A stretch of DNA of 46,870 nucleotides from a virus, in the IMG/VR virus record IMGVR_UViG_3300020205_001735, positions 1-46,870 of that record; one strand, 5' to 3'. Shown one piece after another: positions 1-37,595 of the stretch. The notes under the pieces are model-generated. The model saw only the letters and a list, made by a program, of their open reading frames with translations, searched no databases and had not been told where the DNA came from. A program made the position numbers and the translations under genes. The stretch's first letter is position 1; each line of letters starts with the position of its first letter.

Positions 1-3000
1 CCATATACATCCATTGCTTACCTTCTTCAGTTTGTTGAGTCCACTCGTAAATATCATACAGGGTAACTTGCTCCCTGCCTTTGTCTCGAACATCTTTAAC
101 AAAGTCAGCGGCTGTATTAACCAACATTCCAATAATAGGCTCTAGGTTAGCAGATATCTGCAAAGCAATATCGTCCTTTTCAGAAGGCAAACTATAGAAG
201 TCGATAGGGTCTACAAAGTATAACTCTCTCATCGTGTCCTCAATAAATCTTCTTTGTCTTCTATCTTCACTAATAGTATAGGCGGCATCCAAAAGAAGAG
301 ATCCGACAACCTTACCACCTGCCGCGTACTTCCCTCCAAATAAAGTTGCACCAACTTGTTTTGCTGAGAATATAGCGAGGTCTACCCATCCTTCGGGAGT
401 TTTTAGAGAGTTTAATGTTTCCTCAGCCTCTTCCTTCTCATCATCGTCACCGAAGTTTAAATTAGCCACAGCCTTTCCAATAACCATCAACACAGGATAC
501 AAAGCTAGTCTGCTGTAAGCACCTAAGGACTGAGTCAAACCATCTTTTATTTCACCCCTTGTAACAACTTTGCGTAAACCTCCTATAAGGTTGTCAGCGT
601 CATGGTTAATGAATCCAGAGAACATACCTACGAAAGGAGCTGCCGGTGAATCTGCTGATATCCTAGCTTTTTTAACAAATGGAAACCATTCGATGAATTG
701 CCTTTGCTCCGCTTTGTTACCACCCTTCATAATTCTTCTCATTCTGAAGTCAGCGTCTGAGGCGGCTTTATTCATTTCATCGTAATACTTCCCTTTTTCT
801 TTTACGAAATGTTTTTCATAGTTAAACTTCTCTCCTGTATTATTTTGAAATTCTCTTTCAAACTGAGATTTCCACTCCCCTTTTCTCATAAACCCAGTAA
901 TGTTATTGAGGAACTTGTTAATCAAACCGAAATTACTTTCTCTGTCTAAATAACCATCAACACCTTTCTTTCCACTAATTTTAACTTTCTTCTCTAAACC
1001 AGTAAACTGAACTGAAGAATCAAACTCAGATAACAACTTGTCCGTCTCTTGTTTTTCTTTTGGACTGAATGGCAATGTTAAAGACTTAGAGCTTCTGTTG
1101 CCCACAGCGTAAGCAATAAGGTTGGTTGTAAATTCAACCGGTGTTCTTACAATACCAATCAAAGCGTCAACAAAAAACTTACCCATTAACTTGGATAATC
1201 CAATTGTACTCTCTGACTTCTCTAATGCAAATGGTGCTATTGTATCACTTAATTGTTTTAAGTTATTCAGCATAACAACCTCGTCTGAACTAGCATTTTC
1301 TTGAGCGTTAGAGAAAACTTCCTTCACATATCTTTTAGCCTCAGTCAGGTAGTAATCTCTCAAACCTTCGTTAACATTTGTCATCACGAGTCTGTCTACG
1401 TTGTAGCGAATAGCCTCTACAGGAACTTGAAGAACACGTTGGTAAGATGCTCCTGATCTTATCGCTGCACCTACATTTTTATTGTAGCTAATGTCTGTAG
1501 ATGTTAACGCTGCCTTTCCTGTGCCTATAGATTGTCTTGGCATATAGTAAGGGTTCAACTCATGCTGTTGGTTACGCATACCGCTTGCGCTGTTGATATA
1601 CTCACCAGCCTCTTGTAAGGTGCTTCTTACTACGTTATAATATTCCAATTGGCCGCTTGTAAGAATAGATGTCGGATCAGATTCAAACGCTTCTAGCACA
1701 GCCATGTGGTCAAGTCCTCCCTTTCCGTCAGGGAACATTTGCTTCAAATCGTTGTACACATTGTTTACAATATCCAGCTCGTTGACATCCTCGTTCTGCA
1801 TTTTATTTCTTTCCGTTGCACTAAGCATCTGCTTGCCTAACCAATCGTTAACAGTTTTCTTCTTCTGTTTAGCGTTCCACGCGTTGTCGAGGACGTGTCC
1901 AATAACACCAATCATAACTCTGTCGTAAGCGTCTTTTGAAACTTTTAAAGTCCCATCAGACACTAGAGTTCCATCGGTAGTTAACTTGAACTTTTCAATC
2001 TTCGTTCTGTTGATAAGTTTCCCGATACCAGGAGCATTTTTTAAAATATTTCGGCTTCTTAAACTTTCAACTTTCTTTTGGTAGTTCTTTAAAATTCGTT
2101 GAGAGTCTTTCTCCCACCCGTTGATTGCTCTTACGATAGGGTCTACTAAATGCTTTCTAAAAGCACCGTTCTCTTTCATTCCTAGGCGAGACTCCCAGAA
2201 TACAACGCTCTTTCCTAGAGTGTCTCTCATCATCTTGATGTATCCGTTCTTAGGGTTTGAGTATTTGTTACGAACCTTTTTAGACTGCTCAACTAAACTT
2301 TTACCAACCTCGTTGCCTCTGATTTCTGCACGATCCAATAAGGTTCTTAAATTCTTCTCGTCAACAAACCCTGCCTCAGCAATTTGAGAAACAACTTGGT
2401 TTAAAAGGTCAAGGTCTTCAAGACTTAACGTCATTAAGTTATTAGGTGTTGCTCTCTTCAGTTGATCAATCAATTTTTTTTGATTCTCTGTAAATGTATT
2501 AGGGGAGTTATTCAACCAGTCATCTATTGAATCTATTAATCCGTAACCACCATTGTCTGTGATGCCGTTTACTAGCATCTTCTTCAAGTCATCTATTTGG
2601 TCCTGGAACTGGGGTGCATAAGTGTCTGTAACAGCAGACCCTTCTATAACTTGATTTTTAGCACTATCGTACTGAGCTTCAGATATAACGCCTGTGTCAA
2701 GTAAGGTATTCAACGCTCTCATGTACTTACCCACCTCTCTCTTGAAGCTTTTGTATTCATCGAAGTCATTTATAGTCTTGCCTTGGACGAGTAACTTGTC
2801 TACAGCGTCTTGCCACTTTTGTATAGTGTCAGCAAGGTCAATAGGGTTCGGTTGGTTCTGTTGATTGATGTCATACATCTCATCAAACAAGTTCATCATC
2901 TTGCCAATCTTTGGTACTCTGTCGCTAGTTAACTCACGAAGAGCGTCTAAGTATTCAATCATGGTGTCCATGTCAAAAGCTAGGTCTCCATCCGCTGTGA

Positions 3001-6000
3001 ACATATCAAACTTAGCAAACATCTTCATGTTAGATGTGTACTGATACCCAACCTTGTTCAACACCTTCTTCTGAAGTTTTTTGATTTCGTTTAATCCTTC
3101 AGCGAGTCTTCTGTTAGCAATTATCTTATCTAAGTAAGAAACAAAGGCGTCTAATTGTTTTTGGTTAGAGATGGTAGCGGCTCTACGAGCAATAGACTTT
3201 AACGTAGCAGGAGAAACTGTTCCCTTCTTACCAAATTCATTATCTATTACATCTTTAATGTAGTCTGAAACCAAAGCACCTAAACCTCTTTGTTCTGTTC
3301 TTCCTGCTTTGAGTCCTTTAAAGTAACCGATAAACTCTCCGACTTTTTTACCCATAGACTTTCCAGTCTTCTCACCTGCAAGTCTTGCAACCCCAGCCTC
3401 AAACCGAATGTTGTAACCAAGCTCCTTGATTCGGTCTTGTAACTCTTGTTTAGTTATCTTACCATCTTCAAGTTTTTTATTCAGAGCGTCAATTGTCTTT
3501 TGAGCTTGTTCTTTAGCTTGATCTACACCTTCTTTCTTACCTTCCTTACGACCTTCAAGAGCTGCTTTAATTTCAGATTTAACTCTTTCTAAGAGAAGTT
3601 TACGTTCGCTAATGGTAATCTTTGGTGAAGCGGATTCTAAATCTCTTTCGGTCTTTGCCTTAATCTGCTTTACTTTATTATTGATAGCCTCCTTAACTCC
3701 AGGTTGGGCTAAGTATCTATCAGCAGACTCCTGATCACCATTGGTCATCTCAAGGACAGCTTTATTAACTGCCTCAGATTGGGTAATACCTTCGACATCC
3801 ATGATAGATTTAGCGTTTCCTGCAATGGTGAAGGCAACGATAGTTTCAGGATCATTAAGTGTAGGACCTTCTGTTTTCTCTTTCTTTTCTGTCTTAGGCT
3901 TCTCTTCTTTTTTATTAGTAGAGATAGGCTCTGTCTTTTCTGATGGAGGTGTTACTTTGCGCGGACCTTCCTCTGCACTATTCTCCAAAACAAGCGCAAC
4001 CTCTTCTGTTGCCTCTTCAATAGTAGAACCATTTTCAATAGCGTCAGAGAAAGCGGTGATTGCCTCGGCAACAACTTCAGGTGCTACCTCTGGAACTCCA
4101 ACCTCTTCAACGGTTGTGTTGCCAGTCTGTACATCGTCAGCCATATTCACAAGCTCCTCTTTTGTTTTAGCAAACTTGGTTTGAGACGGTGCTGTGTACT
4201 GAGGATTTCTCGGGTCTTCAAAGTCTTCGAAGTAAGATATCTTACCACGAGCATAAGCTTTGAATCCCATTACAGTAACTTCCTCTGCCGACTTAACTGC
4301 TCTTCCTTCCGAATCGACAAACAAGTGTTCACGATTAGGATTAAACGAGAGTTCAATACCATCAAAATTAGGTTCAGCATCTATTACTCGACCAACAGCC
4401 ATAGCCATCACTCCTTTCGCACGACCTTCAGCAATCTTATTTCTCTCGCTCTGACTTACGTTAAAGTTTACATTAGAGAGTGTGATGTTACCTCTCTGTC
4501 CAATTGCCTCTCCTTTTGAAGCGTTTGGATTTTCTTTTTGAGGCTTACCCTTATCAAATGTGTGGTGAATAGTAAGTACAGGATAACCCAATGATCGAGA
4601 TGCGTTAATGTTTATTCGAGAACCCACTAACATCCCTGGCTCAATCTTAATATTTTTTGCTTCTGTCTGACGAGTGGTTGCATCCATTTTAGGGACATCA
4701 TTTTTAACCTGCTCGTTAGATACAAATGGAACATCCTCCTTAGTTCTTCTTTGGTATAGAGGACTTTCTTCTGCGTCAATATCAATTTGAGCCTTAGCAA
4801 CTACACCTGTTTTCTTTCCTTCTACAAAGTTTTTAAATCCTTCCACATCTTTTTTAGAACCTAAGATGTGAACCTGGGCGTTGGAATCAACAGCCAATTG
4901 ATCAAATTCAGGAGTTGTCTCGTTAAACTTTTGATACGCAGGTAATCCATTCTCATCAACAGGGCCTACATATTCACTTATGTGTGTAATTCCTGTGCCA
5001 TCTGTTTTAAAGTCAACATGATTGTCTTTATCAAGTCCTTTGTAACTAATTAAAGCATCAGCACCATTAGTTACTTCAGAGACTGTTAAATTATTTGGAG
5101 TAATATACCCTCTTTGCGTAATTGAATTTATATCAGTTACATGGAATTTTCTAACATCTAGGATTGCAGCTAAAATTTTACCTACTCCACCCTTTGTATA
5201 GTCAGCAGCTTTCTTTTTGTTAGGTGTCCAATAGATTCCAATTCCTAAATTTTTTGCTCCTGTACCTTTTTTAGGATCGATGTCTTCCGATTCAATCATA
5301 TTTGGATCAGAACTTCCTCTGTAGAATATATCCTTCAATAAACTTTTCGGGAAAATATTCATAAGATAATCCGCATATTCCTTAACTGTTCCAATAGTGG
5401 ATAGCTTTGGATTGTCTTTGAATACCGTTTCTATATCGTCATCCAATTGAGCCTTTGTCTTAACACCTGGTTTTGTTTTAAATTTAGCCTTTTGAAGTTT
5501 CTCACTAGCACCTTCTTGAGGAACAAAACCTTCACCTTTCGCTACTTTAGTTGCTACATCTGGCGTTTTATCTACTAACAATCCTTTTGGGCCGAAGTAT
5601 TCATTTTTAATTTTTGTTTTTTCAGCAGCTGATAATTCAGAGTATTCATTTTTACCAGGGAAAAACTTTTTCACCGCTTTATCTATCTCTTCTTTGTTTA
5701 AATTAATTGCCTTATCTGGCTTGGCAAAACGAACAAAATTTTGATTTACAGGATATAAAGCATCTAATCTGAAATGTTTTGTTCCAGGCAATTTAGCGTT
5801 AAACAATGGGTGCTTTATCCCTCTACTTTGCGTGTCATTTATTAAAGCCAATCTTTCTTCAGCAGGCAAAACATCTAACTCAAATCCTCCTACTAAAAAT
5901 CCACCTTTATCATTCAACATCATGTCTTCGTCTAATATAGTGTTGTCACCATATTCTTTTAAGAATTCATATATGTTGTAACCTGCGTTATTAAGCGCAA

Positions 6001-9000
6001 TTTTTGAGTATGTGGTGTTTTTGTTTGGTTTAACATCTTTGTTTTTTACAATCAAACCTTGACCTAATATTTTTCTTACATTGAAGGTAGTATCCAATAA
6101 ATACTCTTCAACTAAAGCATCAATGTCTGAATCTTTTTTAATTGACGAAAAGAATTTAATCAAGTTTTCTATTGACCCTCTACTTCTTTTTTCAGACAAT
6201 TCTTTTATCTGTTCTTTAGATGCCGCTATCTTTTCATTTTTAGTTAGTATCTTCTTATCTATTGTTTTGAGATTCCCCTCTAGTTTATTAGATAATTTTT
6301 TATCACCTTTGTTTTTTTGTATTTCAGCTAACTTTTCTTTTCTTTGTTTTTGTAAGTCTTGCAACTTGCCAGTTTCTTCCTTGACACTAGTATTTAAATC
6401 TGTAATACTTTTGTTGATTTTGTTTATCTCTTTTTTAAGGGATGTAGAGTTATTGATAAAATCTTTTATACTATCTATAGTTTTCTTGAATTCTGATTCA
6501 GATGATTTTCTGATTTCGGATAAACCACGAATAATGTATTTAGATCCGTAAGAGTTGTTAATAGTAGTATGAGGGTTTTGAACCATTATTAATACTAATA
6601 CTTTTCCTTCTCCATATGATTTTTCAGCCAATGTATATGTTGACTTAACGGTGCCAACACTAACACTTGCAAATCCAATTCCATCCTCTACATTGGTAGC
6701 GTTTGAAGCGAATCCAGGACCTCCTAAAATAGGATCTCCGTCTTTGTCAACACCATACCCGGTAGCATCACTTGTAATCATTATAACACGACCATTGTAC
6801 TCTTTAATCTTTTCCTCTAATGTATTTACAGGCAAGTCTGCTGTCTGTAATATTTCAATATTATTCGGAACTTGATAATCACCAATTTGGCTTTTTGTTT
6901 GTACAGGTTGTGCGACAAAAGTATTTGGATCTACCTCTACAGCTTCCGATGTTGAATAAGGCTCAGATTCTAATAATTCATTAAACGGACCGCTATCTAC
7001 AGTTTCTCCCCTTGAGATTTTCTTACCAAGAGTTTCAAAGAACTCTAATACTTCTTCCGCAGAAGATGTATCGCTGATTGGAGTTATGCCTAATGCCTTT
7101 AATTGAGGATTGCTTAAAATAAAGTTATTGATGAACTCAGCAATCTTTTGAAGTATGCTCTTGTTCTCGGGTTTATTTACATCCAATTCAGCAACAAGAC
7201 CTGCAAGTTCGGATAGATACTCCTCTGCTCGATCTTCGCTAGTAAAGCCTTTTTCATCAGTATATTTTTCAGCAAGTTTTTCAGCCTCAGCACCCCATGT
7301 AGTTTCTACTTCGTTACCATCTTTATCTTTGATGATCATCTTTCTATCCTTGGCAATGTCCTTCAACTTATCCTTAAAGTTGCTAAATACTTTTCCGTCT
7401 CCCTTAAACATTTTAAGGAGGGCAGCGTGAGTAACCTCGTGAGCAATTGTTCTTGCGTTAGCTCTATTTAAGTTAATGTGTACAGCACCTTGGATGTTTC
7501 CGTCCGCTGAAGGTTTGTATACGAACTGACCACGACTATTCACAGTACCGCCCAAAGTGTTCATGGCGTTGTTGTACGACTCATCGCTCTCGTGGAGGAC
7601 GATGTTCATATTAGGGAAGAGAGACTTGAGTGCCTTAACTGCACGAGATGCTTGGGCAACGATCTTACCCTTCTTTGGATCTTGGGCAGTTCTTTTCTGC
7701 AATTCATTCATAGACTGAGATCCGGCAACTATGCCCATGTTTTCAGTCTCTTTGATAGCAGTATCAAACTCTTCGTCTGTAGGCTCTTTCTGTACTTCCT
7801 CTTGTTGAGTTTGTTCTTGAACAGGTTGCGTAACTCGACTCTCTACATTGTAACCAAGTTTTGCTAACTCTTGTTTAGCATTCTCGATGGCGGCATCTTT
7901 TTTAGATTGACCACCTCTTTTAGGAGCGTTGATAGTAAGAGTTCCGTCCTCGTTTAAATTGATAACGGTGCCTGTTGATTGCTGAACCTGATCGATATCT
8001 GTCTGCATCGCCTGTGGTTCTTTCTGTTCCTTTGGCGTTGCTATAATTTCTTCCTTCCCACCTTCTTGGGTAGTATCTTTCCCTTCGAGGACTGGTTCCA
8101 CTCCTTTACGTTCACTCCCTGCTTCTCCAGTTTCTTGCGGTTGGCGTTGAAGAACTTCTCCTGTGCCTGGCTCTTGTATGGCATTTTCTTGTGTTTTAGT
8201 ATTTGTTTTTTCAATTAATTCAACAATCTTAGGAGTGTTCTCAGTCTGTTCCTCTGTTGTGGTATACTCATCAAATTGCATTCCCGAGACCTTGCCTTCG
8301 GCATTAACTTGAAATGCTGTTACCCCCAATTCTTTTAATTGATTATTCAATTCATTTCTTTGGTCCACTCTCTCTTGAGAAACTTCAAATAGTTTATTTA
8401 ACTCTTCTTGAGTACCCTTGATATCTTCTTGTAATTTAATATCTGTTATCCCTTTTGTTTGAAGAGACTTATCAGCGTTCATCATTTCTGTAAGGTTGAT
8501 GTTAGCGTTTAATATTTCTCCTTTCGCTACATCATCAAACTCTTGGAACTTAGGATTAGATGCCATTTCATCGTATCTATCCTTAATATTTTTAACTTGT
8601 TTATACGCATCAGATTCTTTAAACCCTTCATTTTCCGCGCTTACTATACTAACCGCCTCATCAAAGTTTTGAGCAATAGATAATTGAGCTTGTTTACCTA
8701 CAAGGTTGGTGCTTTTTTCTTGAATTAATGTTTTTAAAACACTACCTCCTGAGGTAAATACTCCTGTTATACCACCTAAACCAACAGTAGTAAAAAAATC
8801 TTTTGTGGTAGAACCAAAATTACCTGTTTTAGGGTCTATAAATTCATTTTCTCTAACACCAGCCGCTGACATTACTCCTTGTTCAACTATAAACGTACCA
8901 CCCTCTTCACTACCCTCTTGAGCAAATCCTGTGCCTACATTAACAATAGACTTTCCAGTTGTTTTCCAAAATCCATTTAATAATTGCTTTGTGATTTGTT

Positions 9001-12000
9001 GGGGAGACAGGCCATTTTTAATACCTTCTGAAACTATTTTTTGAACAGCACTTTTCATAGCGAGTCTTTCAAACTCAGGTAGTTCAGGAAACAAGCTCTC
9101 CATCCATGATGTTGCTGCTCCTAGCATAGAGCCGCCAAGTAAGGCTATTGCTGGATCATATCCAGCATCTTCAAATTCTTTTGTGTAGTTACCTACAGCT
9201 AAAGTGGTGAAAAATGCAGTTGTTTGACTTGTTAATGTTGTTTTAGCGGCTGCTTTTAAACCTTGAGTTTTTGCAATTTGAAAAAAACCTCCGCTACCAC
9301 CACCTGCCCAAGATGCGAGTATATAAGGTGCTATACTTCCTAAAGACCCTACAAGCCATTTAGCCCCCCATTCTTCGTAAGCTGGATTAACTGTCTCACG
9401 ACCAATCCTTTCCATTTTATTTCCATACATAACTTTTGTGTTGTCCACAGCAGTCCATGTATTAGGATCATCACTCAAAAAAGTTTCACCAGGCACTACA
9501 AAAGAAGATAAATATTCTCCTGTTAGTAAAGTACTTCCACCCATGTTTTTTACAGTTCCCCAAGCACCTTTACCAAACGCTTCAACCCAAGTATCATTTT
9601 CAGCTTCTATTTTTTCAGCAGTTTCTACATTGTCTTCATATGTGTTCAACATGGTAAATTCACCTAGTTCTCCCCTATCTTTTCTTGCTCCTGTCACCCA
9701 CGAGTATGGTCTTCCTGTCTTTGGGTCAATGGTCATTTCTCTATTTAAGTCATAACCCTCAATAAGTTCTAGTGTTGGAGATAGATCTTGTAATAATTTA
9801 ACGTCTTTGTCAGATCCGAATCTACTTAATTCGCTATCAATGGTAATCATCTCATTGTAAGCGTCTCTCGTCTCATCTGAATACTTTTGTACAACCTCAA
9901 GTACAGGACTAAACTCATTCATCTTCAACTTAACTTCTTCTCTCTTTTGAAGAAGAGCCTCAACTTCACCTCTTATTTTTTCTCCTGCCGCAAAATCAGC
10001 CTCGTCTTTAAAAACTTTTTGGCCATTCTCCTCAACCAACATTGCGTTGTATTGATTAGTCTTCTCTTCAATTTGCTTGTCAATAGCAGTCATTTCAGTC
10101 ACAACAGCTTTTGCACCTTTCACAGAGTTTTTTACAGCAGCGTCATCTGGAATATTGTTTCTTTTTTTAGACTCTTCTACTTTACTAGCAAGTTCTTTTT
10201 TCCTTCCGTTTAATGTTCTAGCGTCATTAGAAATACCCTTCTCTTGTAAGTTCATAGAACTCATCCCTGCTAATGACTTATAATACCCTGTATATTCGCT
10301 ATTAGCGTATTCAATCATATTTCTAGCAAACCTTGCATTTGCTATATTAACATCAGCACTATAATTTTCCTCTGCTGTTTTTGTCAATCCATATATCCCA
10401 GCCTCATCTTCATATCCTGTAGCGTAATCAGAAATACCTGCTGATTCTAAACCTTGGTTCTTAATCTTTCTTAACCTCTCCACGTCCTCATATCTGAACT
10501 TAGGATTTCCTTTCTCAATCTGGTTCATAATAGCAAGTTCCGCTAAATGAAATTGAGCATCCCTTTTTGCCATATTATACAATCTTTCCGCTTCTGCTCT
10601 TTTAGCTTCATTGAATTTTTTTGTGTACTCTTCCCTTGTCTCTTCAGCAAATGGACTTAACTCCTTTTCAAATCCTTTAGCTTGAAGACCGTCTGCTATT
10701 ATTTTAGGATTGAAATCCTTTAGGTAGTCAAGTTCTATCTTAGCAAGAATTTGCTCTTTGTTCCCATCTAAAAGTAATTCGCTAATAGGAATTTGGTATT
10801 TCTCTAAGATGTCATTTGTCCAACTGCTGTTGTAAGGAGAGTTTCTAAATGACTCGTCTGCCTTTGTTACATAAGTAGTATTTGCAACAGCTTGTTCTGC
10901 AATTCTATACGTCTCAATATCCTCTTGTCTTTTTCTTGCTCTTTCTTTTAAATACTCACTTGCTCTTATTGTAGCGGCCTCAACATCACTAACTTTTTCT
11001 TTGGTATAGTCAACTACCTTCTCGAAAAAAGTTCTATCTTTTTCTTCCCCTTCTTTAATTTCTATTTGAGGATAAAATAATGTAGGGCTTCTATTTGTTT
11101 TTTCTAAATGTGCGTTGTAATTAATATTTATATCTTCAGCAACCTCTTGGCCTCCTATTGTAGGCTTATAACCACTTACAGTTAAAGTCGCTCTTTTTAA
11201 ATCTTCCCAATCTTGATCATTTCCGTTGTAATCATCAAAACCCATACCCCCTTCTATTCTATTTGAAACCCACTCTCTGTAAGTAGCACTATCTATTGGG
11301 ACTTCTACTAATGTACCTCTAGACCCTGGGTCATTTTCTTTTTTCCAAATCATTTCAATAGTACCCTTTTCCGAGTTAGTCTTTATGCCGTATACTCTTG
11401 TTTTTCTTAGGTCTTCATACGCCCCATCACGACTTGTAAATTCTATTCCTGTCTCGGCAGTAATTTGATTAGCGGTCTTTCGCTTCATCTTCTTTTCTTT
11501 CGGCTCTTTGTCTTTGTCTTTATCCGTATCTACATCTTCCTGAGCGTCCAAAGTATTTTCCACCTCATCTTCGTCCATAGAAAATGCAGCCGTCCCTAAA
11601 GCGATATCTTTAGACATAGCCATAAAGGGGTGGTCTGTTAATTTCTTCTTTAAGTTTTTGGCTAAATTGGTAATCTTAGAAACAGGATGGTCCGTATCAT
11701 CTTGTGTTGGAGCAACTTGATTTTGAATAGGGTCAACAACATTTTGGGTTTGATCGTTTGAGATAGGATTAACTCCCACAGCAGAAATAGGCATCTCAAT
11801 TTCGGGAGATTGAGTTGCTATCGAGAATTGATTTATATCAAGCTCGTTAATGTTAAGAGGCTCTTCTACAGGCTCAGTACCAACCGTCTGGATTGGCTCT
11901 GTAACTTCGCTTGGCTGCTCCGACTCCTGCTGAGATAGCGCAGCAGATTCGACCATAGACTCCTCTTTTTTTTTTAATCCCTCGTAAGCGTTTGTGTCAT

Positions 12001-12142
12001 AGCCGTTTCTACTTAAAACGTCATCTACCTTCGCTGCGTATTCAGGATCTTCCATTTTAGATTGGAAATCCTCAAATGTAGCAGGAGCCTTTATTCTATC
12101 GTCAGCTTGTAATTCGTTAAAGAGGTCTTGTAAGGTTGCCAT
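1..12142 (-). CDS. giant polyvalent virion protein (C-terminus beyond window)
   Basis: One frame stays open from the ATG at 12142 to the left edge, at least 4047 codons, with the C-terminus missing. Visible parts in order: acidic Pro/Gln-rich N-terminus; a Gly/Ala-rich hydrophobic stretch near residues 915-1010 that could contact membrane; a low-complexity Glu/Gln/Gly linker near 1320-1390; a zinc-metallopeptidase motif HEVTH at 1568-1572 (7427-7441) with a Glu-rich helix downstream; a coiled coil near 1890-2000; an ADP-ribosyltransferase-like segment near 2272-2360 (YRGSS, GIYWT, then AADYT); a second acidic/Lys linker near 2665-2760; then long helical regions. Such mosaics of peptidase, ART and helical domains are known as phage polyvalent proteins, injected with DNA to act on host targets. 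It is last in the late block, after two ejection-type genes, with its own -7 box. The protein functions are inferred. Confidence 0.93.
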   Translation of the reverse strand, partial: MATLQDLFNELQADDRIKAPATFEDFQSKMEDPEYAAKVDDVLSRNGYDTNAYEGLKKKEESMVESAALSQQESEQPSEVTEPIQTVGTEPVEEPLNINELDINQFSIATQSPEIEMPISAVGVNPISNDQTQNVVDPIQNQVAPTQDDTDHPVSKITNLAKNLKKKLTDHPFMAMSKDIALGTAAFSMDEDEVENTLDAQEDVDTDKDKDKEPKEKKMKRKTANQITAETGIEFTSRDGAYEDLRKTRVYGIKTNSEKGTIEMIWKKENDPGSRGTLVEVPIDSATYREWVSNRIEGGMGFDDYNGNDQDWEDLKRATLTVSGYKPTIGGQEVAEDININYNAHLEKTNRSPTLFYPQIEIKEGEEKDRTFFEKVVDYTKEKVSDVEAATIRASEYLKERARKRQEDIETYRIAEQAVANTTYVTKADESFRNSPYNSSWTNDILEKYQIPISELLLDGNKEQILAKIELDYLKDFNPKIIADGLQAKGFEKELSPFAEETREEYTKKFNEAKRAEAERLYNMAKRDAQFHLAELAIMNQIEKGNPKFRYEDVERLRKIKNQGLESAGISDYATGYEDEAGIYGLTKTAEENYSADVNIANARFARNMIEYANSEYTGYYKSLAGMSSMNLQEKGISNDARTLNGRKKELASKVEESKKRNNIPDDAAVKNSVKGAKAVVTEMTAIDKQIEEKTNQYNAMLVEENGQKVFKDEADFAAGEKIRGEVEALLQKREEVKLKMNEFSPVLEVVQKYSDETRDAYNEMITIDSELSRFGSDKDVKLLQDLSPTLELIEGYDLNREMTIDPKTGRPYSWVTGARKDRGELGEFTMLNTYEDNVETAEKIEAENDTWVEAFGKGAWGTVKNMGGSTLLTGEYLSSFVVPGETFLSDDPNTWTAVDNTKVMYGNKMERIGRETVNPAYEEWGAKWLVGSLGSIAPYILASWAGGGSGGFFQIAKTQGLKAAAKTTLTSQTTAFFTTLAVGNYTKEFEDAGYDPAIALLGGSMLGAATSWMESLFPELPEFERLAMKSAVQKIVSEGIKNGLSPQQITKQLLNGFWKTTGKSIVNVGTGFAQEGSEEGGTFIVEQGVMSAAGVRENEFIDPKTGNFGSTTKDFFTTVGLGGITGVFTSGGSVLKTLIQEKSTNLVGKQAQLSIAQNFDEAVSIVSAENEGFKESDAYKQVKNIKDRYDEMASNPKFQEFDDVAKGEILNANINLTEMMNADKSLQTKGITDIKLQEDIKGTQEELNKLFEVSQERVDQRNELNNQLKELGVTAFQVNAEGKVSGMQFDEYTTTEEQTENTPKIVELIEKTNTKTQENAIQEPGTGEVLQRQPQETGEAGSERKGVEPVLEGKDTTQEGGKEEIIATPKEQKEPQAMQTDIDQVQQSTGTVINLNEDGTLTINAPKRGGQSKKDAAIENAKQELAKLGYNVESRVTQPVQEQTQQEEVQKEPTDEEFDTAIKETENMGIVAGSQSMNELQKRTAQDPKKGKIVAQASRAVKALKSLFPNMNIVLHESDESYNNAMNTLGGTVNSRGQFVYKPSADGNIQGAVHINLNRANARTIAHEVTHAALLKMFKGDGKVFSNFKDKLKDIAKDRKMIIKDKDGNEVETTWGAEAEKLAEKYTDEKGFTSEDRAEEYLSELAGLVAELDVNKPENKSILQKIAEFINNFILSNPQLKALGITPISDTSSAEEVLEFFETLGKKISRGETVDSGPFNELLESEPYSTSEAVEVDPNTFVAQPVQTKSQIGDYQVPNNIEILQTADLPVNTLEEKIKEYNGRVIMITSDATGYGVDKDGDPILGGPGFASNATNVEDGIGFASVSVGTVKSTYTLAEKSYGEGKVLVLIMVQNPHTTINNSYGSKYIIRGLSEIRKSSESEFKKTIDSIKDFINNSTSLKKEINKINKSITDLNTSVKEETGKLQDLQKQRKEKLAEIQKNKGDKKLSNKLEGNLKTIDKKILTKNEKIAASKEQIKELSEKRSRGSIENLIKFFSSIKKDSDIDALVEEYLLDTTFNVRKILGQGLIVKNKDVKPNKNTTYSKIALNNAGYNIYEFLKEYGDNTILDEDMMLNDKGGFLVGGFELDVLPAEERLALINDTQSRGIKHPLFNAKLPGTKHFRLDALYPVNQNFVRFAKPDKAINLNKEEIDKAVKKFFPGKNEYSELSAAEKTKIKNEYFGPKGLLVDKTPDVATKVAKGEGFVPQEGASEKLQKAKFKTKPGVKTKAQLDDDIETVFKDNPKLSTIGTVKEYADYLMNIFPKSLLKDIFYRGSSDPNMIESEDIDPKKGTGAKNLGIGIYWTPNKKKAADYTKGGVGKILAAILDVRKFHVTDINSITQRGYITPNNLTVSEVTNGADALISYKGLDKDNHVDFKTDGTGITHISEYVGPVDENGLPAYQKFNETTPEFDQLAVDSNAQVHILGSKKDVEGFKNFVEGKKTGVVAKAQIDIDAEESPLYQRRTKEDVPFVSNEQVKNDVPKMDATTRQTEAKNIKIEPGMLVGSRININASRSLGYPVLTIHHTFDKGKPQKENPNASKGEAIGQRGNITLSNVNFNVSQSERNKIAEGRAKGVMAMAVGRVIDAEPNFDGIELSFNPNREHLFVDSEGRAVKSAEEVTVMGFKAYARGKISYFEDFEDPRNPQYTAPSQTKFAKTKEELVNMADDVQTGNTTVEEVGVPEVAPEVVAEAITAFSDAIENGSTIEEATEEVALVLENSAEEGPRKVTPPSEKTEPISTNKKEEKPKTEKKEKTEGPTLNDPETIVAFTIAGNAKSIMDVEGITQSEAVNKAVLEMTNGDQESADRYLAQPGVKEAINNKVKQIKAKTERDLESASPKITISERKLLLERVKSEIKAALEGRKEGKKEGVDQAKEQAQKTIDALNKKLEDGKITKQELQDRIKELGYNIRFEAGVARLAGEKTGKSMGKKVGEFIGYFKGLKAGRTEQRGLGALVSDYIKDVIDNEFGKKGTVSPATLKSIARRAATISNQKQLDAFVSYLDKIIANRRLAEGLNEIKKLQKKVLNKVGYQYTSNMKMFAKFDMFTADGDLAFDMDTMIEYLDALRELTSDRVPKIGKMMNLFDEMYDINQQNQPNPIDLADTIQKWQDAVDKLLVQGKTINDFDEYKSFKREVGKYMRALNTLLDTGVISEAQYDSAKNQVIEGSAVTDTYAPQFQDQIDDLKKMLVNGITDNGGYGLIDSIDDWLNNSPNTFTENQKKLIDQLKRATPNNLMTLSLEDLDLLNQVVSQIAEAGFVDEKNLRTLLDRAEIRGNEVGKSLVEQSKKVRNKYSNPKNGYIKMMRDTLGKSVVFWESRLGMKENGAFRKHLVDPIVRAINGWEKDSQRILKNYQKKVESLRSRNILKNAPGIGKLINRTKIEKFKLTTDGTLVSDGTLKVSKDAYDRVMIGVIGHVLDNAWNAKQKKKTVNDWLGKQMLSATERNKMQNEDVNELDIVNNVYNDLKQMFPDGKGGLDHMAVLEAFESDPTSILTSGQLEYYNVVRSTLQEAGEYINSASGMRNQQHELNPYYMPRQSIGTGKAALTSTDISYNKNVGAAIRSGASYQRVLQVPVEAIRYNVDRLVMTNVNEGLRDYYLTEAKRYVKEVFSNAQENASSDEVVMLNNLKQLSDTIAPFALEKSESTIGLSKLMGKFFVDALIGIVRTPVEFTTNLIAYAVGNRSSKSLTLPFSPKEKQETDKLLSEFDSSVQFTGLEKKVKISGKKGVDGYLDRESNFGLINKFLNNITGFMRKGEWKSQFEREFQNNTGEKFNYEKHFVKEKGKYYDEMNKAASDADFRMRRIMKGGNKAEQRQFIEWFPFVKKARISADSPAAPFVGMFSGFINHDADNLIGGLRKVVTRGEIKDGLTQSLGAYSRLALYPVLMVIGKAVANLNFGDDDEKEEAEETLNSLKTPEGWVDLAIFSAKQVGATLFGGKYAAGGKVVGSLLLDAAYTISEDRRQRRFIEDTMRELYFVDPIDFYSLPSEKDDIALQISANLEPIIGMLVNTAADFVKDVRDKGREQVTLYDIYEWTQQTEEGKQWMYM

Positions 12143-12158
12143 ATTAAAATTGTATGTA

Positions 12159-12166
12159 CAAATATA
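12159..12166 (-). promoter_or_regulatory. -7 box TATATTTG for the giant gene
   Basis: On the minus strand this reads TATATTTG, a full match to the Bacteroidota -7 consensus TAnnTTTG. It lies 17 bases before the ATG at 12142, inside the 64-base gap after the 483-residue gene. No convincing TTG was found at -33, so the call rests on the -7 box and on its spacing, which is shared with other promoters here. Confidence 0.55.
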
Positions 12167-12206
12167 CAAATTTCATCTAATAGGTAACCCTTATTTTTTT
12201 AACGAT

Positions 12207-33349: not shown

Positions 33350-33379
33350 ATACAAAAATCCCCCTAAATAAGGGGGACT
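33350..33379 (-). terminator. intrinsic terminator after the SSB-like gene
   Basis: A perfect CCCCCT / AGGGGG stem (33360-33376), extended by one A-T pair, is followed on the minus strand by ATTTTTGTATTTTT. It lies 14 bases after the stop of the SSB-like gene and is T-rich on both sides, so it could work in both directions. Confidence 0.85.
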
Positions 33380-33390
33380 TTCTTTTTGTA

Positions 33391-33865: not shown

Positions 33866-34081
33866 ATGAACGTAGATAAAAATATACCAATCCCAAGCAC
33901 AAGTGGGAGAGGTAGAAAAACCGAATATGTTTTACCGGAGATGGAAGTAGGAGACTCTTTCTTTGTTCCTGGAGAAACATCAAAATACCTTGCTAAACTT
34001 TTCTACCAAAAGAAAAAGAAGAAATACGAACTAACTGCCCGATCAATGGATGGTGGAGTTCGTGTTTGGAGAGCAGCGTAA
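33866..34081 (+). CDS. small phage protein, unknown
   Basis: A 71-residue protein: a short polar N-terminus, the phrase LPEMEVGDSFFVPGE in the middle, a Lys-rich stretch (YQKKKKKYEL) and a C-terminal GGVRVWRAA. The 'xMEVGDSFxVP' pattern recurs in small phage proteins of unknown function with a compact DNA-binding-like C-terminus. It is the first plus-strand gene after the divergent region. The -33 element of the next promoter lies inside its 3' end. No clear -7 box was seen upstream; TATATTCG at 33835 is one mismatch off. Confidence 0.78.
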   Translation: MNVDKNIPIPSTSGRGRKTEYVLPEMEVGDSFFVPGETSKYLAKLFYQKKKKKYELTARSMDGGVRVWRAA

Positions 34082-34096
34082 TTTTCATTATCTTTG
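34065..34096 (+). promoter_or_regulatory. consensus promoter of the replication operon
   Basis: TTTG (34065-34068), a 20-base spacer and TATCTTTG (34089-34096) together match the Bacteroidota promoter TTTG-N19/21-TAnnTTTG at every defined base. The expected start of transcription is near 34103. It overlaps the end of the 71-residue gene and is the only promoter here followed by a long leader. Confidence 0.78.
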
Positions 34097-34101
34097 TTTT
34101 C

Positions 34102-34190
34102 GGTTCGAGTCGCAGCGAATCAAAAAACATAAAATATTAGCCCTGTTGAATAGGTGAGCCTGCGACCTCCCTGTTCTTCGGGGCATTTTT
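34102..34190 (+). ncRNA. structured leader or small RNA with complementary hairpin loops
   Basis: Hairpin A (34102-34121): 6-bp stem GGTTCG / CGAATC, 8-nt loop AGTCGCAG. An 18-nt A-rich linker follows. Hairpin B (34140-34184): 6-bp GCCCTG / CGGGGC, a 2x2 U-U internal loop, 7-bp GAATAGG / CCTGTTC, and a 15-nt loop holding CTGCGAC (34160-34166). GTCGCAG in loop A (34109-34115) is perfectly complementary to it, so a 7-bp kissing loop is possible. Hairpin B is followed by ATTTTTATC and so resembles a terminator. The ATG of the replisome organiser is only 16 bases further on. It could be an attenuator, a leader switch or a short terminated RNA of about 85-90 nt. Confidence 0.6.
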
Positions 34191-34200
34191 ATCTCACATT

Positions 34201-34935
34201 ATGAACACAGGACAAATTGTAAGAGCGAAGTCTGAAAGAGATTTCACCATGTTAAGCAACAAGTTATTGCAGGATTGCAACATCACCATCGAAGAGAAGG
34301 GGTTGCTTGTTTATCTATTAAGTCTACCTACAGATTGGGTGCTTTACAAAAAGAGTTTGCCAGAAAGAACTATGGAAACAAAAGGTACTATTGATCGTGT
34401 ATTTAAACAACTTCAGCAGAAGGGTTATATTCTTAGTGTTAAGGTAATTGACTCTAAGACAAAAGTATTCAAGGGCTGGAATCATATTGTTTACGAACAG
34501 CCGACATTAGAGATACCCGACACTAGGGAAGAGCCGAGGTCGACAAAAGCCGATGTCGGTCAAAGTCTGCCTATAGAAAGACATACTAATACAAATACTA
34601 ATATTAATACAAATACTAACATAGATACATTGGCAAAAAAAGTAAAAAATAGTTTTGTGCCACCTACGTTAGAAGAAGTGAAGGTGTTTTTTAGAGATAA
34701 GGGTTACAGAGAGGATGCCGCCATTAAAGCGTTCAATTACTACACCGATGGTAATTGGCATGACAAGAGTGGATCTCCAGTTAGAAATTGGAGACTCAAG
34801 ATGCACGTTTGGTTTAAGGATGCATACAAGATTCAAGAAGAGAAAATTAAAGTTAGAGATGTATTCGGAAGCACACACTTCAAAACTCAAGATGAAATAA
34901 ATAAAGCTGAACCAGGATTTTTCAATAAAATATGA
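34201..34935 (+). CDS. replisome organiser / replication initiator, winged-helix
   Basis: A 244-residue protein of the phage replication-initiator type. The N-terminus (about 15-95) has the winged-helix pattern (FTMLSNKLLQDCNITIEEKG, later ETKGTIDRVFKQLQQKGY). A polar linker with a TNTNTNINTNTNI repeat follows (about residues 130-142). The C-terminal domain (about 155-215) resembles the helicase-loading half of DnaD/replisome-organiser proteins (VPPTLEEVKVFFRDKGY; FNYYTDGNWHDKSGSPVRNW). The linker repeat is encoded by iteron-like DNA repeats, as in lambda O. It is the first gene after the structured leader and overlaps the primase-helicase by 4 bases. Confidence 0.85.
   Translation: MNTGQIVRAKSERDFTMLSNKLLQDCNITIEEKGLLVYLLSLPTDWVLYKKSLPERTMETKGTIDRVFKQLQQKGYILSVKVIDSKTKVFKGWNHIVYEQPTLEIPDTREEPRSTKADVGQSLPIERHTNTNTNINTNTNIDTLAKKVKNSFVPPTLEEVKVFFRDKGYREDAAIKAFNYYTDGNWHDKSGSPVRNWRLKMHVWFKDAYKIQEEKIKVRDVFGSTHFKTQDEINKAEPGFFNKI
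34587..34619 (+). repeat. two 15-bp iteron-like direct repeats inside the initiator gene
   Basis: TAATACAAATACTAA occurs at 34587-34601 and again, perfectly, at 34605-34619, 18 bases apart, in a very AT-rich stretch that continues to about 34660. The position inside the initiator coding sequence recalls the lambda origin within gene O. Origin function is inferred. Confidence 0.55.
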
Positions 34936-36677
34936 GCAACTACCAAAAATTATCTGCCCTTGGAATTGTCTGCAAGGATATCTCGGCACAACAAAAAGTA
35001 AACTGTCCGTTCTGCAAAGACACGAGAAGTAACAAGAAGGACAAGAGTCTATCCGTAAATGTCGAGTTAGGAGTGTACAAGTGCCACTACCCAAACTGCG
35101 AATCCTTCATGGGTAAGAGTGTAAACAAGTCGGACCGAAAGGTTGAGTACTTTGTTCCTGTATCAAAACTTCAGAAGGTGAGCGACAAGGTCCTCTCTTG
35201 GTTTGAGAAGAGAGGGATTTCCAATAACACTCTGCTGAAACTTAAAGTTACTGAGGAGGAGTGTTACTTCCCACAAGCTGGTGAGAATAGAAATGCCATA
35301 TGTTTTAATTACTTTCGAGGAGGTGACTTAATCAACATAAAGTACCGAGACGCGGCAAAGAACTTTCGGATGGTTAAGGATGCCGAGTTGATACTATACA
35401 ACCTGAACTCCATAGAGGGCTATGATTGGTGTGTAATCGTTGAAGGGGAAATGGACACCCTTTCTTTGGAGGAAGCTCAAATTTACCCCGTTGTAAGCGT
35501 TCCTAATGGGGCAACGAAAGGAAATCAGAATCTAAAGTATTTAGATAACTGTATTGATGCGTTTGCGGACAAGGATAAAGTAATCATTTTTACCGACAAT
35601 GACTCAGCAGGTTTATCTCTTCGTGAGGAGTTAACGAGAAGATTGGGACGCGAGAAGATTTGGTATGTCAACATCCCCGATGGGTGTAAAGATGCTAATG
35701 AGATTCTAGTTAATTACGGAGTAGAGCTTCTTCAGAAGGTTGTGGCCGAAGCCTACCAAGTGCCAATAGAAGGCATTGAGAAGGTAAATGATGTAAAGGA
35801 GAAAATAACGGACATATATCTTAATGGGTTTCCTCATGGGTTGAAAGCAGGGTTTAATCAATTTGATGAACATATCTCGTTTCGAGGCTCAGAGTTCACT
35901 ATTATCACAGGAACACCCAACGCAGGAAAGTCAACTTTTCTGAACAATTTACTTGTCAGATTGTCTGCGAAACATTCGTGGAAGATAGCAATGTTTTCGC
36001 CAGAAAAACAACCCACAGAGATACTTTTTTCTGAACTTGCTGAGATATTTATTGGTAAGCCTTTTTTCTCCTTTGTGCCTACAGCAAAGATGAGCCAAGA
36101 GGAGGTTGACAAGGCTCGTGATTTTGTAGAGGAGTTCTTCTACTTCATGAAGATTGATGAGATGGATGTGACCATTGATGGTATCCTAGACAAAGCAGCA
36201 GAACTTGTAAAGAGAAGCGGAATCAATTGTCTTGTGATAGACCCCTGGAACTATGTTGAACACCAGGTCCCAAAGGGAATGAGTGAGACGCAGTACATAT
36301 CAGAGGCACTCACAAAGGTGAAAAGATTCAAGGATCGCTACGGAGTCCATGTCTTTGTTATTGCCCACCCCACAAAGATTAGGAAGGAGAACGGTGTTTA
36401 TGTTATGCCGACTCTTTATGACATAGCAGGTTCTGCTCACTTCTTCAACAAGTGTGATAACGGATTTGTTGCTTACCGAGACTATGTCTCTGGGCAAACT
36501 CTCATCAACATACAAAAGATTCGTTGGTCCTTCATAGGAAGGGTTGGAGAAGTTCCTTTTGTGTACGATGTAAAAACAAAAAGGTTTTCAGAGATTGGAG
36601 ATGATGGTAACGGAATCTTATTAGACGAGTACGAAACAAGACAACACGAATATGAAGACGAAGACATACCATTCTGA
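34932..36677 (+). CDS. primase-helicase (T7 gp4-like)
   Basis: A 581-residue bifunctional replication protein. N-terminal zinc finger with Cys25, Cys28, Cys51 and Cys56. TOPRIM primase core with VIVEGEMDTLS (about 168-178) and VIIFTDNDSAG (about 216-226). A RecA/DnaB-type helicase follows with Walker A ITGTPNAGKS (about 324-333), Walker B CLVIDPWNY (about 431-440) and VFVIAHPTK (about 475-483). The C-terminus is acidic (YEDEDIPF), like SSB or gp4 tails that bind partners. The start overlaps the organiser stop by 4 bases (ATGA). It primes and unwinds DNA at the phage fork. Confidence 0.95.
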   Translation: MSNYQKLSALGIVCKDISAQQKVNCPFCKDTRSNKKDKSLSVNVELGVYKCHYPNCESFMGKSVNKSDRKVEYFVPVSKLQKVSDKVLSWFEKRGISNNTLLKLKVTEEECYFPQAGENRNAICFNYFRGGDLINIKYRDAAKNFRMVKDAELILYNLNSIEGYDWCVIVEGEMDTLSLEEAQIYPVVSVPNGATKGNQNLKYLDNCIDAFADKDKVIIFTDNDSAGLSLREELTRRLGREKIWYVNIPDGCKDANEILVNYGVELLQKVVAEAYQVPIEGIEKVNDVKEKITDIYLNGFPHGLKAGFNQFDEHISFRGSEFTIITGTPNAGKSTFLNNLLVRLSAKHSWKIAMFSPEKQPTEILFSELAEIFIGKPFFSFVPTAKMSQEEVDKARDFVEEFFYFMKIDEMDVTIDGILDKAAELVKRSGINCLVIDPWNYVEHQVPKGMSETQYISEALTKVKRFKDRYGVHVFVIAHPTKIRKENGVYVMPTLYDIAGSAHFFNKCDNGFVAYRDYVSGQTLINIQKIRWSFIGRVGEVPFVYDVKTKRFSEIGDDGNGILLDEYETRQHEYEDEDIPF

Positions 36678-37085: not shown

Positions 37086-37595
37086 ATGGAAGCTAAAGCG
37101 GAAAAGAAAATTCATTTTGGAGACATCCTAGAGTATGTGCCAAATGATCGAAAAGAAAGATTTATTAACGACCTGATTATCTATGTACCTCACCTAAAAG
37201 AGGAGGCCGATAAGTTCAGCCATGTGATTCATAATGTTGCTATCGGCACTAACATGAGGAATTATATTGACTTAATGAAAGATGTTGCTCTAAAGGTTTA
37301 TGATGCCACAGGGGCAAAGAATAGAAAAAGAGAAAATATCCTTTACAGACAGTTAGTGTACTGGATGATGTACAAAACATTGCCTGTAACGTTGGGTGGC
37401 ATTGGTAGCGAGTTTGAGAATAAGAACCACGCAACTATCTTACATGGCATTAAAACATTTGAAAATACAATAGAGACATCGTGGAAAGACAGAATGGTTA
37501 TTCAATACTTTGTTGAAAAGATGGAAGAACTTGGATATCCACAACCTAGACAAGCATTCAGAGAGTTATTTTTTAAACTAAACATTCAATACTAA
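37086..37595 (+). CDS. DnaA domain IV-like DNA-binding protein
   Basis: A 169-residue protein. Its C-terminal half matches the DnaA DNA-binding domain layout: a basic helix, YRQLVYWMM (from about residue 87), LGGIGSEFENKNHATILHGI (about 102-121) and a closing helix. In DnaA, RQxAMYL and IGxxFGGRDHTTVxHA form this domain; here NKNHATILHG replaces the GRDHTTVLHA part. There is no ATPase domain, so this is a stand-alone box-binding protein. Together with the organiser upstream it suggests origin control or competition with host DnaA. Confidence 0.85.
   Translation: MEAKAEKKIHFGDILEYVPNDRKERFINDLIIYVPHLKEEADKFSHVIHNVAIGTNMRNYIDLMKDVALKVYDATGAKNRKRENILYRQLVYWMMYKTLPVTLGGIGSEFENKNHATILHGIKTFENTIETSWKDRMVIQYFVEKMEELGYPQPRQAFRELFFKLNIQY

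Follow-up and report, generated by a model that had tools for sequence, protein, structure and literature searches.

Premature termination in phage P4 is controlled by the CI RNA, a small RNA from the replication-operon leader, through RNA–RNA pairing. Regulation of the pT181 type acts on a replication gene, repC. In the pT181-type attenuator, loop–loop kissing decides the formation of an intrinsic terminator in the leader (PMC4878617). ANTAR targets consist of two leader hairpins, the second of which overlaps a terminator, and are used repeatedly in one genome (PMC3369931). In phage HK022, put is a nascent RNA at the start of an early transcript that affects termination in cis (PMC9378689). 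Structured RNAs of Bacteroidota, such as Flavo-1 and Bacteroidales-1, are also known and are represented in Rfam (PMC2864571).

The locus considered here lies in the window, a 46,870-nt stretch of viral DNA from IMG/VR, in which an initial annotation had proposed a kissing-loop leader at the head of a replication operon. The leader and its surroundings comprise the following features.

33866–34081, + strand: small ORF of 71 aa, DUF7303-like; its 3′ end overlaps the promoter, and in close relatives it immediately precedes the leader.
34065–34096, + strand: Bacteroidota-type promoter, TTTG-N20-TATCTTTG, with TTTG at 34065–34068, a 20-nt spacer and TATCTTTG at 34089–34096.
34102–34121, + strand: hairpin A, from the predicted fold and relatives; stem 34102–34107/34116–34121, loop 34108–34115 containing GTCGCAG (34109–34115).
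34122–34139, + strand: A-rich linker (AAAAAACATAAAATATTA), resembling the class motif AAAAAYATT.
34140–34184, + strand: hairpin B, from the predicted fold and relatives; outer stem 34140–34145/34179–34184, followed by a UU/UU internal loop.
34148–34176, + strand: inner part of hairpin B; inner stem 34148–34158/34167–34176, apical loop 34159–34166 containing CTGCGAC (34160–34166).
34186–34190, + strand: U5 tract, which gives hairpin B the form of an intrinsic terminator.
34201–34935, + strand: replication initiator, a wHTH protein of the DnaD-like helicase-loader family; first gene after the leader.
34932–36677, + strand: primase-helicase, Toprim + DnaB_C; second gene.

As annotated, the 7-nt segment of loop A is the exact reverse complement of that in loop B, and minimum free energy (MFE) folding of 34095–34200 leaves both 7-mers unpaired, in the 8-nt loops of the two hairpins. 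The MFE of this region is −34.4 kcal/mol (z = −4.3), and none of 200 shuffled sequences was as stable. Across both strands of the 46.9-kb window, complementary 7-nt hairpin loops no more than 110 nt apart occur at the leader and at one other site. Rfam 15 returned no match at the gathering threshold for the window or for seven other loci, and membership of a known Rfam family, including those of Bacteroidota RNAs, was rejected on this basis; the leader itself gave a single chance match (E = 4).

Hairpin B is GC-rich and is followed directly on its 3′ side by the U-tract, as in an intrinsic terminator. Its tail reads A-U5, and the TTTTT is invariant across 22 relatives. The distance of 16 bases from the base of hairpin B to the ATG at 34201 was confirmed, and the sequence bears out the accompanying claim that this interval has no room for another promoter. 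Expression from the leader promoter would therefore need the polymerase to pass hairpin B. A strong terminator of similar form, with an A-U5 tail, lies at 33354–33382 on the minus strand, after a DUF3127 ssDNA-binding gene.

The position of the promoter predicts a transcription start at approximately 34101–34103. The promoter is present as described, but its ranking as the strongest in the window was overstated: about one full-consensus TTTG-N18-21-TAnnTTTG is expected per strand by chance, and further matches occur in the window at +46068 and −28392. What distinguishes this promoter is its conservation together with the leader in relatives. The promoter type and the relatives that share the leader class suggest that the host of the phage belongs to the Bacteroidota. 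Elsewhere in the window, an ORF of at least 4056 codons (2–12169, minus strand) runs off the window start; its product is probably a virion protein of very large size. A DnaA C-terminal DNA-binding domain is found in small early-region proteins, both in the window (37086–37595, plus strand) and in L396, L398 and L403.

Related IMG/VR contigs were gathered using the rep protein, the upstream 71-aa protein, the helicase and the hairpin-B pattern. A nearly identical leader is present in ~36 contigs, representing 22 distinct leader sequences. Relatives that keep the gene and lose the complementarity, which had been named as the observation that would refute the kissing loop, were looked for among them; the 7-bp match is perfect in all 22. 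In an alignment of these sequences, pairing is retained in 100% of cells of the kissing helix, where three of the seven pairs have changed on both sides, and in 98.4% of cells of the hairpin A stem, where three of six pairs are doubly changed and several A-U/G-U exchanges occur; the contigs share descent, and such cell counts do not equal independent events. The loops occur as four alleles (GTCGCAG, GTAGAGG, GTCGAGG and GTAGCAG), each of which has its complementary counterpart, and pairing falls to 41–51% in slid controls of the alignment. The sequence of hairpin B is nearly invariant.

That the complementarity persists through compensatory changes in 22 distinct relatives excludes a chance match, and the G-U/A-U exchanges in the stems indicate an element that operates at the RNA level. 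The covariation analysis recommended in the initial annotation thus came out in favour of its kissing loop, and loop–loop pairing is well supported by these comparisons.

With a covariance model, each of the 27 phage records gave one strong copy of the leader, and a search for a second copy in the window phage or the 26 related records found no convincing one. The model found no copy in a set of more distant loci, nor in bacterial loci retrieved with a relaxed pattern; in bacterial genomes, this pattern returned only chance matches and ordinary terminators. Generic AGCCCTG...CGGGGC-T5 hairpins do occur in Bacteroidota genomes, and hairpin B resembles such ordinary terminators. Used as a nucleotide query, the leader had no match among named phages and plasmids, and it is absent beside distant relatives of the upstream 71-aa protein.

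Among close relatives, the first gene after the leader is of at least five types, including several different wHTH/DnaD-like initiators and GIY-YIG-like proteins, while the leader, promoter and upstream gene remain constant. Given this turnover, the leader serves the operon and not one gene, and a leader dedicated solely to its rep gene was rejected. Its placement at the head of a replication operon is right for this phage, but the leader is not bound to the rep gene, other gene types being found elsewhere. GIY-YIG-like genes (TNIYVMIDHHTGHYKIGRS) are inserted between the leader and the replication genes in six relatives (L038, L041, L044, L045, L033 and L052). Leaders may be moving along with GIY-YIG/HNH homing-type endonuclease genes, which the same leader class precedes in other phages.

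Hairpin A and loop B are themselves replaced jointly between phages whose flanking genes are 93–99% identical. Between L038 and L041, the first gene is 98% and the upstream gene 95% identical, and stem A only 38%; the swap pattern is similar for L044/L045 and for the window and L002. The loop allele changes at least 10 times on the helicase tree, and some of these changes can be explained by recombination between the leader and the helicase.

Relatives with ~40% helicase identity are without the window leader sequence. They nevertheless show the same plan in a class scan, which looked for intrinsic terminators lying immediately ahead of an ATG, the loops of which are complementary to that of a hairpin further upstream. 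The loop match is 9–10 nt in L351 and 7 nt in L184, and the targets are terminator loops directly before an ATG near replication genes. In a variant at L349 (2569–2730), an 11-nt 5′ segment with no clear hairpin and a long linker matches the terminator loop before an ATG. The same layout, in unrelated sequence, occurs in Tenacibaculum phage JQ, in Flavobacterium phages 11b, elemoA and hattifnatt9-1, in Cellulophaga phages phi10:1 and phi19:1, and in many metagenomic phages. Phage hattifnatt9-1 has three copies: one ahead of a helicase, one ahead of an endonuclease and one ahead of the rep operon. Where one phage has multiple copies, their loops differ and each is complementary to its own partner.

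The common plan consists of a promoter box, hairpin A, a linker, a terminator-like hairpin with a complementary loop, a U-tract and an ATG. A TAnnTTTG box is present at 25 of the 43 listed class sites, mostly 17–24 nt before the loop segment. Hairpin B mostly begins 19–30 nt after that segment, often with the AAAAAYATT motif in between, and the ATG mostly follows 8–18 nt after the start of the U-tract, with a T-run-to-ATG range of 8–50 nt. The loop–loop helix, 7 bp in the window leader, spans 6–10 bp across the class. Measured from its 3′ end, the pairing segment is 13–25 nt (median 18) ahead of the U-tract at 31 of 32 sites, a distance that follows in part from hairpin length; with this spacing, the segment can already have left the polymerase by the time the termination decision is made. 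The genes that follow encode replication initiation proteins, DNA helicase, ERF recombinase, HNH/NUMOD4 and GIY-YIG endonucleases and small unknown proteins; the class thus serves early DNA-metabolism genes and homing-type endonucleases.

In Riemerella phage RAP44 (L400), leaders at ~30426 (minus strand) and 13784 precede genes of the antirepressor region and have 12–14 nt of complementarity to the terminator loop; part of that leader sequence occurs a third time, at the start of a coding sequence (TTAAACCATC). The RAP44 site at −30426, with its repetitive 14-nt complement, may be a class variant. Matches at L405, in RAP44 coding sequence and at −30335 in the window were dropped as coding-region chance.

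The frequency of such sites was assessed in 424 kb from 12 Bacteroidota phage sequences, which include the window and of which two are closely related. Under a strict definition (k ≥ 7, a linker of 20–32 nt and an ORF behind), 12 sites were observed versus 0.17 in dinucleotide shuffles (maximum 1); with the ORF condition removed, the figures were 15 versus 3.1 (maximum 5). When upstream regions were permuted among 991 hairpin-plus-T candidates, 16 sites were observed versus 5.1 (maximum 10 in 60 runs), and pre-ORF sites numbered 11 versus 0.9 (maximum 4) when loops and upstream regions were permuted. The strict definition, linker included, returned no sites with an ORF in 300 kb of Bacteroidota chromosome, and Lactococcus phage TP901-1 had no class site.

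The thresholds of the scan were fixed after the first examples were known, and a second set was therefore drawn with a pattern blind to pairing (AAAAAYATT, 42–72 nt, TTTTTATTTTATG). In this set, in which a few members are closely related to hattifnatt9-1 or among themselves, the kiss is present in 15 of 22 distinct pre-ATG terminator hairpins versus 1.06 by permutation (maximum 5 in 500 permutations). Being selected by the linker motif, the set cannot be used to judge that motif. The same pattern had no matches in six whole Bacteroidota genomes.

From these sequence comparisons, it appears rather probable that the leader is a cis-acting transcription attenuator in which loop–loop pairing sets read-through into the early genes. 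Transcription would start at the foot of hairpin A, which would fold first, and loop A would pair with the apical-loop segment of hairpin B once that segment leaves the polymerase. The termination decision at the U-tract, 13–25 nt further on, would then be made with the loop–loop complex present, and the pairing would set the frequency of read-through into the gene that begins a few bases later. In this scheme, hairpin B is a putative terminator, the start at hairpin A is predicted, pairing presumably occurs within one molecule, and a loop-controlled switch between termination and read-through, with pairing altering the latter, is the best reading. Pairing in cis is argued by the several different self-matching loop pairs that occur in one phage, and the recurrence of the arrangement with unrelated sequence in many phages supports an association between the kissing loop and a terminator ahead of the operon's first gene.

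The kiss competes with neither hairpin of the leader, and the upstream part of the leader contains no complement of 6 nt or longer to the 5′ arm of hairpin B. A classical antiterminator was rejected on both grounds, and any effect would therefore have to come from the tertiary contact, its timing or a factor that sees the contact. A stable terminated RNA of 85–90 nt is a possible product.

Much the same signature would be expected in the sequence if the leader affected mRNA stability or translation, or if it gave rise to a free small RNA. It is fairly unlikely that the kissing leader shields the early mRNA from decay and exposes an unstructured, U/A-rich start region, with the U-tract serving as a translation-start feature and little termination at hairpin B. 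Such a role would suit the location of hairpin A at the predicted 5′ end, the recurrence of the ATTTTTATTTTATG context in the class and the independence of Bacteroidota from Shine–Dalgarno sites. Every case, however, has the GC-containing stem and T-rich tract that an intrinsic terminator needs, and the T-run always directly follows the hairpin (partly by definition of the scan), whereas its spacing to the ATG varies (8–50 nt). In put-like processive antitermination, the nascent two-hairpin RNA would bind RNA polymerase, which would ignore its own and later terminators. Two hairpins do head early operons independently of the downstream gene, and put works without any protein (PMC9378689). This mechanism is nonetheless very unlikely for the present leader: a polymerase-binding RNA should be conserved, but beyond the close family there is little conservation outside the promoter, A-rich linker and tail, and the second hairpin is itself terminator-like. 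A role at the DNA level, with the inverted repeats bound by the replication initiator or serving as its origin, is extremely improbable; the position before rep genes in the window family would fit, but the stems use G-U pairs, the polarity relative to promoter and ATG is fixed and members of the class also stand before genes for nucleases and helicases.

The loops might instead act in trans, for immunity or copy control. Terminated leaders (~88 nt) would accumulate, their loops would pair with same-allele nascent leaders of a superinfecting or sister genome and force termination, and the alleles would be specificity types. The swaps of hairpin A and loop B between phages with 93–99% identical neighbours (L038/L041, L044/L045 and window/L002) and the frequent allele switches on the tree are as in specificity determinants, and the P4 CI RNA operates at a comparable place. 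Complementarity is, however, always to the own partner, copies in one phage have unrelated loops, the swaps are explained by recombination of leader cassettes plus drift, and no lysogeny gene was found among the window proteins scanned; trans action of this kind is accordingly considered unlikely. Also improbable is a dual role, in which a widespread riboregulator times early genes through pairing of the 5′ hairpin with its own terminator loop, and the exchangeable loop pair is in addition a trans self/non-self code between co-infecting phages.

Read as a cis-acting attenuator, the leader belongs to what looks like a widespread and apparently undescribed class of RNA switch. The 5′ leaders of Bacteroidota phages appear to have been little studied: besides the lack of an Rfam match, no published description of a kissing-loop terminator leader was found in the open-access literature. 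If the class is real, phages of a very abundant bacterial phylum share a compact and perhaps protein-free gate for early genes, used several times per genome and with code letters that are freely changeable. It would then be a natural and easily re-addressed transcription attenuator, directly testable in the cultured phages that carry it (hattifnatt9-1, 11b, phi10:1, phi19:1 and JQ).

Compared with the systems described above, the leader shares with HK022 put its position at the start of early transcripts. To our knowledge, the loops of put are not known to kiss; moreover, put is not a terminator, whereas hairpin B is terminator-like. Like ANTAR targets, the window leader has a hairpin before a terminator. 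ANTAR hairpins, however, have protein-bound hexaloops with fixed A1 and G4, whereas the loops of the present class are 7–10 nt, variable and mutually complementary; those of the window are 8 nt (AGTCGCAG and CCTGCGAC) and vary between relatives. The P4 CI RNA pairs in trans with separate leader sites, whereas here both complementary segments belong to a single leader. With pT181, the leader has in common loop–loop pairing upstream of a replication gene, but the kissing partner in pT181 is an antisense RNA, and here it is a hairpin of the same transcript. Furthermore, a separate antiterminator segment sequesters the 5′ arm of the terminator in pT181; no such segment was found in the window leader, in which the target of pairing is the terminator's own apical loop.
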